Shown here one piece after another: positions 18,736-48,405 of a DNA stretch of 64,000 nt (position 1 is the stretch's first letter; every line of letters starts with the position of its first letter). The translations under genes and the position numbers were made by a program. The notes under the pieces were generated by a model. That model had not been told where the DNA came from, searched no databases, and saw only the letters and a list, made by a program, of their open reading frames with translations. Source of the DNA: Asticcacaulis taihuensis (GTDB taxonomy: Bacteria; Pseudomonadota; Alphaproteobacteria; Caulobacterales; Caulobacteraceae); the NCBI RefSeq assembly GCF_900100255.1, contig NZ_FMTS01000001.1, positions 248,001 to 312,000 of the forward strand. The letters are read 5' to 3'.

Positions 18736-20073
18736 ATGGAAAAAGCGAAACAAAATATTATTGACTATCGCATGTTCTGGCGCTGGCATTTCTATGCCGG
18801 GCTGGTGTGCATTCCGTTTGTCATCATCCTGTCGATCACCGGACCGATCTACCTGTTCAAGCCACAGATCGAGGCGGCGATCGATGCGAAGTACGATCAC
18901 CTGCTGTTTGATGGCACGCCCCAATCGGCAGAAACCATGGTCAAAGCGGCGGTTGCAGCCGTGCCAGGTTCACGCTTCAAGGCGATCGAGGTGCGGCCGG
19001 ATATCCATGATGCGGCGCGGGTCATTGTGCTGAAGAGCCATGATAAAATCCGTGTCTATGTCCACCCGAAAAGCCTGAAGATGTTGAAGCAAGTGCCTGA
19101 AAGTGCGCGCTTTATGGAGATCGTGAAGGATATTCACGGTGAACTGTTTGCCGGGCGCTTCGGGCAGGTGATTGTCGAACTGGCCGCCTCCTGGGCCATC
19201 GTCATGATCCTGACCGGGCTTTACCTGTGGTGGCCCAGAAATGCAAAAAGCGAAGCCAAAGGCGTCGCCGGCCTGCTCTATCCGCGTCTGAACATGGGCA
19301 AACGGATCTTCTGGCGCGATATCCACGCCGTTATCGGGATATACATCTCCGCTCTGGCGCTGTTTCTGCTCCTGACCGGCCTGCCCTGGACCTATGTCTG
19401 GGGCAATGCCTTCAAATCCGTGCGCGCCCTGGCCAATCCTGCGCCGGTCACACAAGCCTGGTCTCAGGGACGCGCCGATGAGAAAAGGGCCCTGAAGGCC
19501 GAAGGCACGGCTCCCGCCGATCTTGGTCGGCTGGATGCCCTGCTCGATACCGCCCGCGCGCTTAACCTGCCGGCACCGGTGACGCTCAGTGTTCCGGCGA
19601 AAGGTGCCAGCCTCTGGAAACTGGCCTCGGATACCGGCAACCGTCCGCAACGTGTGACCCTGATGATTGACCCTGCCATGTTGGAGGTCATTAGCAGCGA
19701 AGACTTTGCCGATAAGAAGCCGCTAGACCGGGCGGTCGGCTATGGCATCGCTGCCCACGAAGGTCAGTTGTTCGGTCCGCTCAACCAGGCGCTCGGCGTC
19801 CTCACGGCGCTCGGCCTGATGGCCCTGTGCGTCAGCGCCGTGGTCATGTGGTGGCAGCGGCGGCCGACTGACAGGCTTGGCGCGCCACAGCGTCTGCCCG
19901 ATGAAAAGCTGGCGCCAGGCCTGGCCCTTATCATTATCGCATTAGGTATCTTCTTGCCGGTACTGGGGATCAGCCTGATCGTTGTTGGCTTGCTCGAATG
20001 GCTCATCCTGCGCCGCATACCCGCCGTGCGGGACTGGCTCGGCCTGAAAGCAGATCGGGCGTGGGATCTGTGA
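18736..20073 (+). CDS. PepSY-associated membrane protein (PiuB-like)
   Basis: 445 residues with an N-terminal helix pair (WRWHFYAGLVCIPFVIILSITGPIYLF), a central extracytoplasmic PepSY-like part (about 55-145), further membrane helices (FGQVIVELAASWAIVMILTGLYLWWPR; HAVIGIYISALALFLLLTGLPW) and two more near the C-terminus (about 350-430). The family is found next to TonB receptors for siderophores and is thought to act as an inner-membrane reductase or transport partner; this is not proven. It is translationally close to the receptor (3-base gap). Its last codons lie inside a repeat element: hairpin A at 20061-20079 spans the TGA stop at 20071-20073. Confidence 0.87.
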   Translation: MEKAKQNIIDYRMFWRWHFYAGLVCIPFVIILSITGPIYLFKPQIEAAIDAKYDHLLFDGTPQSAETMVKAAVAAVPGSRFKAIEVRPDIHDAARVIVLKSHDKIRVYVHPKSLKMLKQVPESARFMEIVKDIHGELFAGRFGQVIVELAASWAIVMILTGLYLWWPRNAKSEAKGVAGLLYPRLNMGKRIFWRDIHAVIGIYISALALFLLLTGLPWTYVWGNAFKSVRALANPAPVTQAWSQGRADEKRALKAEGTAPADLGRLDALLDTARALNLPAPVTLSVPAKGASLWKLASDTGNRPQRVTLMIDPAMLEVISSEDFADKKPLDRAVGYGIAAHEGQLFGPLNQALGVLTALGLMALCVSAVVMWWQRRPTDRLGAPQRLPDEKLAPGLALIIIALGIFLPVLGISLIVVGLLEWLILRRIPAVRDWLGLKADRAWDL

Positions 20074-20184
20074 CCCCACAAACCTTGCTTTATTCCAAAG
20101 AAAAACCCGGCCTTTTGGACCGGGTTTTTCTTTGGAATAGAGAAGACTAGGGGCCCAAGGAAACGTTCTTTGGCCCCAAACCCC
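20061..20184 (+). repeat. Three-hairpin 3'-end element, copy 1
   Basis: Hairpin A: GTGGGATC (20061-20068) / GACCCCAC (20072-20079), loop TGT, one mismatch; it covers the end of the PepSY coding sequence and its stop. The spacer CACAAACCTTG follows. Central hairpin: perfect 20-base arms at 20091-20110 and 20120-20139. Hairpin B is a longer, imperfect form: GGGGCC from 20150 pairs with GGCCCC at 20172-20177. The central stem, with its A and T runs, can act as a terminator for the PepSY gene and for the convergent lpdA. The other copies are at 25990, 46167 and 48282. Confidence 0.85.
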
Positions 20185-20190
20185 ATGAGT

Positions 20191-25712: not shown

Positions 25713-25989
25713 TACTCAAGCCCCTTCTGGACTGCGGCAATACGTAATGGCCTTTTTTGAGCCTTCGCGGTTAACATAGTGTTACGAAACATGTCGGGAC
25801 ACACAGAAGAATTTATCACTGATGTCTTTTGAAAAATCAGACTTATCACGGCGTTTTTATCTTTATTGTCAAAATGTGAGCACTTGAGTTTGCACGGGCC
25901 GATGTCGGTGACAGAATGCGCCGCCGGACACGTACGCAGGATATGCGAAAAAGGGTTAATGAAGGCTGAGCGTTACATGGTCGAGTTAT
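25713..25989. other. Intergenic region upstream of ftsB
   Basis: 277 bases with no supported gene, between ftsB and the repeat element after eno. It should hold the ftsB promoter. The one site I would mark is TTAA-N7-TTAC at 25771-25785, one base off the CtrA consensus TTAA-N7-TTAA. The rest is AT-richer than its surroundings and shows nothing further that I recognise. Confidence 0.5.
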
Positions 25990-26111
25990 GGGGTTTGGGG
26001 CCCGCGGCCCCAAGACTTACCTTACTTCAATAAAAATCCCTCGCCCCGAAAAGGGCGAGGGTTTTTATTGAAATCAAGACAGGTTTTGTGGGGTCACGGA
26101 CCCCACGCCCC
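25990..26111 (-). repeat. Three-hairpin 3'-end element, copy 2
   Basis: Downstream of eno on the minus strand. Hairpin B: TTGGGGCC (25995-26002) / GGCCCCAA (26006-26013), loop CGC. Central hairpin: arms 26026-26046 and 26053-26072, 20 pairs with one bulged T, GC-rich at the loop side and A/T runs outside. Hairpin A: GTGGGGTC (26088-26095) / GACCCCAC (26099-26106), loop ACG. GGGG at 25990 and CCCC at 26108 could close the whole element. Hairpin A begins within 11 bases of the eno stop. The central stem is likely the eno terminator. Confidence 0.88.
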
Positions 26112-26116
26112 GAACC

Positions 26117-46169: not shown

Positions 46170-46299
46170 CTAACGGGGCGTGGGGGCTGTGCTCCCACAA
46201 ACCTTGTCTTATTCCAAATAAAAACCCGGTCTCTTGGACCGGGTTTTTATTTGGAAAGAGGAAGACTTGGGGGCCATAGGACCCAAACACCGTTAGTTA
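46167..46299 (+). repeat. Three-hairpin 3'-end element, copy 3
   Basis: Outer arms TAACTAACGG (46167-46176) and CCGTTAGTTA (46290-46299) are exact complements and include the stop codons of gltA and of the convergent lpxB. Hairpin A: GTGGGGGC (46180-46187) / GCTCCCAC (46191-46198), loop TGT. Central hairpin: perfect 19-base arms 46212-46230 and 46238-46256, similar in sequence to copy 1. Hairpin B: TTGGGGGCC (46267-46275) / GGACCCAA (46279-46286), one irregular position. Probably a two-way terminator for gltA and lpxB. Confidence 0.88.
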
Positions 46300-48281: not shown

Positions 48282-48405
48282 GTTACGGGGTTTGGGGCCT
48301 GTGGCCCCAAGCCTTTACTTTCTTTCTTCCCTTGCCCCCAATAGGGGGGCAAGGGAAGAAAGAATATAGAAGATTTGTGGGGTCACGGACCCCACGCCCC
48401 GTTAC
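48282..48405 (-). repeat. Three-hairpin 3'-end element, copy 4, inside the lpx cluster
   Basis: Outer arms GTTACGGGG (48282-48290) and CCCCGTTAC (48397-48405), one mismatch. Hairpin B: TTGGGGCC (48292-48299) / GGCCCCAA (48303-48310), loop TGT. Central hairpin: perfect 20-base arms 48320-48339 and 48345-48364, a different sequence from the other copies (pyrimidine-rich arm). Hairpin A: GTGGGGTC (48377-48384) / GACCCCAC (48388-48395), loop ACG. It ends 9 bases from the lpxA stop on the minus strand and 12 bases from the lpxI start, between genes of the same pathway on the same strand. Confidence 0.88.

Follow-up and report, generated by a model that had tools for sequence, protein, structure and literature searches.

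A structured dispersed palindrome family has been found in Asticcacaulis taihuensis, with four copies in the window (the whole stretch of 64,000 nucleotides that was analysed) and roughly 23-27 loci in the genome. We lean towards the view that it is a genus-wide REP- or MITE-like palindrome which carries, and often replaces, the local terminator and which evolves by template switching and occasional copying. If this is true, transcription ends throughout the genus come from, and are rewired by, a dispersed repeat. Its copies would also form a large set of parallel natural replicates in which RNA selection can be weighed against self-templated DNA mutation as the source of hairpin covariation in bacteria, a question that bears on the calling of structured RNAs from alignments generally. 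G and L numbers denote sampled genomes and loci, G000 being the window's own genome.

Direct reading of the sequence confirmed the four copies where the earlier note had placed them, and a covariance model built from 20 copies of the own genome reports these four and no others within the 64-kb window. The copies and their parts are given below; the extents of whole elements include the outer stem.

20051-20189, + strand: copy 1, whole element (sequence, 20-copy alignment, covariance model)
20061-20079, + strand: copy 1, hairpin A (read from the sequence)
20093-20137, + strand: copy 1, central stem of terminator polarity, with A-rich 5′ arm and U-rich 3′ arm (sequence and stem classification, L050; the simple terminator scan gave no flag)
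20148-20179, + strand: copy 1, hairpin B, its loop extended by an extra small hairpin (sequence, alignment)
25985-26116, - strand: copy 2, whole element, 3′ of eno (-) (sequence, alignment, covariance model, Pfam)
26088-26106, - strand: copy 2, hairpin A (read from the sequence)
26026-26072, - strand: copy 2, central stem, terminator-like on both strands (simple terminator scan, sequence)
25995-26013, - strand: copy 2, hairpin B (read from the sequence)
46170-46296, + strand: copy 3, whole element, in the gap between the convergent genes gltA (+) and lpxB (-) (sequence, alignment, covariance model, Pfam)
46180-46198, + strand: copy 3, hairpin A (read from the sequence)
46212-46256, + strand: copy 3, central stem of terminator polarity (sequence and stem classification, L038; the simple terminator scan gave no flag)
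46267-46286, + strand: copy 3, hairpin B (read from the sequence)
48282-48405, - strand: copy 4, whole element, within the run of lpx genes, separating lpxA (-) from lpxI (-) (sequence, alignment, covariance model, Pfam)
48377-48395, - strand: copy 4, hairpin A (read from the sequence)
48320-48364, - strand: copy 4, central stem of reversed polarity, with pyrimidine 5′ arm and purine 3′ arm and no U-tract (sequence and stem classification, L044)
48292-48310, - strand: copy 4, hairpin B (sequence)

The neighbouring genes had been named correctly from the sequence: Pfam gives PepSY_TM, enolase and citrate synthase for PepSY, eno and gltA, and the identity of lpxA rests on hexapeptide repeats together with UDP-GlcNAc O-acyltransferase domain 2. 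Pfam also gives LpxB and LpxI. Copy 1 lies between the PepSY_TM gene (+) and a convergent gene (-) for a pyridine nucleotide-disulphide oxidoreductase, probably lpdA, and the next same-strand gene after copy 2 is DivIC/FtsB-like. All four copies do lie directly 3′ of a gene, as had been stated, but copies 1 and 3, which are located between convergent genes, each adjoin two gene 3′ ends. The stop codon of the PepSY_TM gene (20071-20073) lies within hairpin A of copy 1, so that here the reading frame ends in sequence provided by the element.

The element is a quasi-palindrome of about 125 bp composed of an outer stem, hairpin A, a central stem and hairpin B. In the consensus of 20 copies, the order from A to B is CTTAYGGGG, hairpin A with the arms GTGGGGTC/GACCCCAC or of TTTGGGG type, the spacer AAACCTTGCCTTATTC, a central stem of ~20 bp, the spacer GAAAGAGAGAAGACTT, hairpin B with the arms TTGGGGCC/GGCCCCAA, and ACCCCRTAAG. 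Reading and alignment agree with the earlier description of hairpins A and B, of the CCCACAAA spacer and of central stems that differ from each other while being similar in length. The three hairpins of that description are real, but a fourth helix had been missed, the outer stem CTTAYGGGG/CCCCRTAAG which closes all three and which is degenerate in copy 1. Extra small hairpins occur in loops: one in B is common to copy 1 and L022, and another lies in A of L012.

RNAalifold recovers the outer stem and the three hairpins unprompted. In the 20-copy alignment, 88.6% of the cells are paired in this cloverleaf (79.3% when shuffled) and 22 of its 45 pairs have changed on both sides (shuffled mean 14.0). 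Covariation of the central stem, which the earlier note had proposed to check, is present, with 16 of 20 pairs changed on both sides. An alternative fold, in which A pairs with B to give a single end-to-end hairpin, has 84.4% of its cells paired and 23 pairs changed on both sides; it fits almost as well as the cloverleaf, so that covariation cannot separate the two folds. That the arms of A and B are able to pair had been foreseen, and the end-to-end hairpin is the predicted minimum-energy fold of copies 2, 3 and 4. For the best-scoring copy (L031) this fold is the cloverleaf, and for copy 1 it is mixed. Folding z-scores of the four window copies range from -7.6 to -9.7.

When copy 2 alone was used as a DNA query on its own genome, 18 other loci were found at E<=1e-6. 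The search with the covariance model, in which 150 of 796 first-look candidates were scored, gave 23 loci at E<=1e-10 and 27 at E<=1e-5, of which 20 are the training copies. Strong matches outside the training set are located at C8:108920, C6:8196 and C16:26684, and C8:822223 is a lone hairpin A by eye. E-values reach down to 1e-36 (training copies included), and most loci are matched on both strands, since the element nearly equals its reverse complement. Far from being confined to the four loci of the window, the family is dispersed in its own genome and in the genus, and the hairpins A and B that flank the central stem are conserved across loci.

In a draw of 149 genomes from the family Caulobacteraceae, 24 match at E<=0.01 under strict filters. 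All 23 drawn Asticcacaulis genomes match (G075 by a single weak match), while the 126 genomes of other genera gave one weak match only (7.6e-4). With genomes outside this draw, Asticcacaulis is represented by 25 genomes in total; one of the additional genomes, G150, carries a copy at gltA. In a draw of 385 members of the class (E<=1e-6, strict filters, nine candidates scored per genome) only the own genome matched.

An exact scan for the hairpin-B pattern found 84 stretches, and 65 of the 80 loci listed are named Asticcacaulis while 15 are not. Nine genomes behind the latter were searched with the model and eight match at E<=0.01, G157 giving no match; the pattern by which these genomes had been picked required hairpin B and not the remaining architecture. 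Three Ca. Chloroploca genomes (Chloroflexota) have 56, 34 and 41 match rows, with both strands counted and a best E-value of 2e-13. All ten inspected Chloroploca loci consist of a hairpin, a long stem and a hairpin, and in nine of the ten the long stem has a run of at least 4 A opposite T. This resemblance may be due to descent, transfer or convergence. Four Insolitispirillum loci were inspected; L359 has all three parts and the other three are paired hairpins. In Insolitispirillum peregrinum, L368, L373 and L380 are inverted pairs of GGGG-headed hairpins, like untagged REP doublets. In a Sphingomonadales metagenome bin, the three readable loci show one hairpin beside a pyrimidine tract. Solo hairpin-B units beside a purine/pyrimidine tract are found in this bin near gene ends (L102, L108, L122, L123, L362, L369, L374), and they are possibly a simpler relative of the element.

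The placement of the element was analysed in G124, G080 and G000 (35, 25 and 27 copies), using all unique loci at E<=1e-6 in the first two and the 27 own-genome loci. Gene orientations come from codon-usage scoring, with 14 genes of the window as training set, and not from a gene finder. By this measure 44 of the 87 copies lie between convergent genes, 43 between tandem genes and none between divergent genes. For the great majority (80 of 87), a called gene 3′ end lies no more than 15 bp away; for five the distance exceeds 50 bp.

Of the 25 Asticcacaulis genomes, nine carry the element 3′ of eno, five 3′ of gltA and nine in the lpxA-lpxI gap, the last including a weak match in G042 with an insert in its core. 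The gltA gap without element has a plain hairpin and U-tract in G114, G080 and G124 where G000 has the element, and the lpx run of G119 and G150 has a short plain junction. By position and sequence, the element thus takes the gap in which element-free relatives have a plain terminator. Weak model matches at gltA (L238, L240 and L243, E-values 0.045-0.75) were not counted; by eye they are plain terminators.

Central stems fall into two polarity classes. In the terminator class, the 5′ arm is A-rich and the 3′ arm U-rich, which makes the stem terminator-like on both strands. In the reversed class, which is large, a pyrimidine arm is followed by a purine arm on either strand and there is no U-tract. 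The central stem is terminator-like in the majority of the window copies; copy 4 is reversed, so that the terminator-like layout, thought to be kept throughout, is lost in this copy and in a whole class of others. The trait of an intrinsic terminator, a GC-rich stem followed by a U-tract, is seen by sequence in copies of the terminator class and is missing in those of the reversed class. A simple terminator scan flagged the central stem in copy 2 and not in copies 1 or 3, its flag at copy 4 is the B-side hairpin, and its sites are no more numerous than in shuffles. Judged from sequence, the terminator-class hairpin would terminate transcription intrinsically in both directions, serving either one gene or a convergent pair. 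A stem of the reversed class would provide no intrinsic terminator; it would form a folded spacer or an element affecting mRNA stability, for example between lpxA and lpxI. The two classes permit a direct test, as the flanking hairpins are equal and the terminator is present or absent.

Stem polarity fits the gene context as a tendency and not as a rule. The classes come from a second stem classifier, an earlier one having assigned no class to 19 of 104 copies. The ratio of reversed to terminator stems is 10/6 for tandem and 7/10 for convergent copies in G124 (two unclassified), 11/3 and 5/4 in G080 (two unclassified), and 3/8 and 1/14 in G000 (one unclassified). Within each of the three genomes alone the association is not significant (p 0.28-0.36), and stratified by genome it has p=0.06. 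A strict context rule was rejected, as its pooled p-value of about 1e-5 fell to 0.19 and 0.22 upon deduplication by locus. With a 250-bp gap cut the stratified test gives p=1e-4, a cut that was picked after the data had been seen. Among tandem copies, the next gene is closer in the reversed class (24 copies, none above 214) than in the terminator class (17 copies, of which nine exceed 300; Mann-Whitney p=0.0025). These comparisons are not fully independent, as G124 and G080 have some orthologous loci in common. All eight classified lpxA-lpxI copies are reversed. In group L065, which represents one gene, six copies with a convergent neighbour belong to the terminator class; its one tandem copy, L126, is reversed in one classification and just below the threshold in a later one. 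At one tandem locus the species differ: L134 is of the terminator class and the copies of three other species are reversed. Reversed stems are also found between convergent genes, with 1 of 15 classified copies in G000, 5 of 9 in G080 and 7 of 17 in G124, and the matching of polarity to context is therefore only a tendency.

Relative to the adjoining gene, hairpin A comes first in 20 of the 42 tandem copies and hairpin B in another 20, with 2 being ambiguous, so that the order of A followed by B described for the window is not general. Both orientations occur within 15 of 26 multi-member locus groups; the groups were defined by protein similarity of the adjoining gene, and some may thus hold independent insertions. 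In close pairs of G000 and G109 (at L036/L269 and at gltA) the flanking DNA has been kept and A and B are swapped. At L066/L077 of G014 and G137, the flanks align, the element matches better when reversed (89%), and the central loop is the same without reversal. As the central loop has not been flipped, one inversion of the whole element does not explain the swap.

Complementarity of the two arms extends beyond the conserved ends. This was analysed for 74 of the 87 copies (13 without a clear GGGG/CCCC end were dropped), comparing complementarity of each flank to its own opposite flank with that to flanks of other loci. For nt 7-16 outside GGGG/CCCC, the mean duplex energy is -5.79 versus -3.21 when shuffled (z -10.5), and z-scores are -8.8 for nt 11-22 and -5.1 for nt 21-36. 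Tandem copies alone give -6.3 for nt 7-16 and -5.0 for nt 11-22. The nt 21-36 stretch shows no complementarity in two subsets, the G000 copies (z -0.5) and the convergent copies (z -1.3), and G080 has a weak signal at nt 1-6 (z -1.1). In yeast, template switching between the arms of inverted repeats is described as having two outcomes, homogenisation of the arms and inversion of the spacer (PMC8604942). A/B swapping together with complementarity beyond the conserved ends are marks of template switching, and compensatory evolution, one of two readings offered earlier, thus need not mean RNA selection. The covariation behind that proposal of compensatory evolution or module exchange is real, but it is better read as homogenisation of arms and swapping in place within a quasi-palindrome, with whole elements copied from time to time. 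Template switching between the arms during replication would homogenise them and swap A and B, giving rise to both the covariation and the apparent module exchange. Selection on RNA structure may also be compatible with the covariation.

Whole units would now and then be copied to new sites, for which a near-identical pair provides support. The elements at L328 and L333 in G124 are 95% identical while their 100-bp flanks are 51% and 48% identical, and the identity stops at about GGGG/CCCC; copy pairs within a genome mostly have medians of 63-67%. For 21 G000 copies that were tried in the sister species G109, both flanks were found in 12 cases and 11 of these carry the element, a count that is biased upward because the G109 stretches were partly picked around known copies. 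Copying of whole elements thus seems to happen, slowly. Among the matches listed, one locus passed the filter for a clean empty/filled pair (L134 versus G000 around L051), and here ~40 bp of the gap have been replaced, which is not a simple insertion. Terminal inverted repeats, a trait of MITEs, are present as the GGGG...CCCC ends and the covarying outer stem. Direct target-site duplications were not found in 74 copies (1 direct 5-mer, 15 inverted 5-mers). The Y1 transposase (PF01797) has no match in the own genome. It matches at nine loci in 4 of the 25 Asticcacaulis genomes, and neither the element nor a GGGG hairpin of this form is found at these loci. A RAYT/Y1 transposase as the mover was set aside, as it shows no association with the element in the 25 genomes.

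We consider it unlikely that the cloverleaf has been kept as a selected RNA, a 3′ UTR structure which stabilises mRNA or binds a protein, with the covariation representing true compensatory evolution. The excess of paired cells over shuffled alignments (88.6% versus 79.3%) and the independent recovery of outer stem and three hairpins by RNAalifold would be expected from such an RNA, and reversed-class copies within operons would be transcribed whole. However, a transcript ending at the central stem would miss hairpin B and half of the outer stem, the single long hairpin is nearly as good (84.4%) and has the lowest predicted energy in copies 2-4, and relative to the gene A-first and B-first copies are equally frequent (20/20/2). 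We assign a similarly low probability to a classic non-autonomous transposon (MITE or REP doublet) that is moved by a transposase in trans and has no host function, with terminator stems as hitchhikers filtered by selection. The inverted ends, the multiple copies, the restriction to one genus within the family sample, the one recent-looking copy pair (L328/L333) and the presence/absence pattern at eno, gltA and lpxA (9, 5 and 9 of 25 genomes) are in line with a transposon. Against it stand the retention in G109 at 11 of 12 own-genome sites, in regions partly chosen around known copies, the lack of target-site duplications in 74 copies and the Y1 results (no match in the own genome, matches in 4 of 25 in the genus, nine loci without element), Y1 being the sole transposase family searched.

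Intrinsic terminators are common and GC-rich, and look-alikes might arise by chance or ordinary convergence. This is very improbable for the element, as the unpaired spacers and hairpins A and B are conserved across loci, own-genome E-values reach 1e-36 with training copies included, and just one weak match occurs in the 126 other-genus genomes of the family draw. The reading we lean towards remains the genus-wide palindrome that carries a terminator. A wider version of this reading appears doubtful to us, namely that mobile palindromes with a terminator as cargo form a class that spans phyla and is shared by Asticcacaulis and Chloroflexota through transfer or independent origin, and that they replace native terminators, place a terminator stem at unit ends and a reversed stem in operons, and flip and copy their arms by self-templating.

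The earlier note had not recognised a described RNA family, and Rfam indeed gives no match at gathering score in the window. In E-value mode, three loci gave 20 matches, all below gathering scores (best E-value 2.5e-4). These are mostly eukaryotic microRNA families on the central stem, with Thr_leader at 5.6e-4 in addition, and they were taken as chance matches to a long hairpin. Among the papers listed by literature searches, with few subscription journals covered, no account of such an element in Asticcacaulis or Chloroploca was found.

The element resembles REP, BIME and REPIN sequences in being made of short palindromes, here an inverted pair, in intergenic positions 3′ of genes. REPs sit between convergent or same-strand genes, 3′ of genes (PMC3733652, in part). 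It differs in that the 20-copy alignment shows no conserved GTAG/CGTC tag at the hairpin feet; read inward, the ends are GGGG-CGTGGGGTC or GGGG-TTTGGGGC on the left and GGGG-TTTGGGGCC on the right, and the GTGG of A-type hairpins lies inside the stem and is not found in B-type hairpins. It also differs by the separate central stem between the two palindromes, by the outer stem with its locus-specific extension, and by having tens of copies per genome versus >100 for REPs (PMC2817692). CIR elements of Caulobacter and Brucella are likewise intergenic, structured and alphaproteobacterial, with about 110 bp, but they carry GANTC and have two arms and a linker, unlike the three hairpins and outer stem seen here (PMC2229807, in part). 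Identity with CIR, known here from a secondary description, was ruled out as the CcrM site GANTC occurs in 0 of 20 copies. As the tests for tag, RAYT and GANTC failed, the element has not been filed as REP/BIME with RAYT or as CIR. Like bcr1, NEMIS, RUP and ERIC, which have about 100-200 bp and are intergenic and strongly folded (PMC2229807 and PMC2267715, each in part), it is a compact folded repeat, but it has no target-site duplication, has a terminator-like central stem in one class and shows in-place A/B swapping. Close inverted pairs of uptake sequences also form terminator hairpins (PMC2267715, in part); in the element, the terminator is not formed by the repeats but by a separate variable stem between two conserved hairpins.

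Several copies have acquired additional sequence. The eno copy of G109 (L279:13800-15760) is interrupted by ~2 kb with transposase-like ORFs, one end of which lies in hairpin B. We take these ORFs, by eye, to be IS110-like and IS5-like; REPs are reportedly targets of IS elements. The G109 loci L267, L269 and L273 have a common insert of ~32 nt in the loop of hairpin A, hairpin-forming by eye, which is not found in the G000 orthologues. In G042, a different palindromic repeat with CTAGAGCG-like ends occurs in the core of the lpxA element (L201) and in the gltA gap (L229). This CTAGAGCG-ended repeat is a second repeat family that nests in the palindromes.
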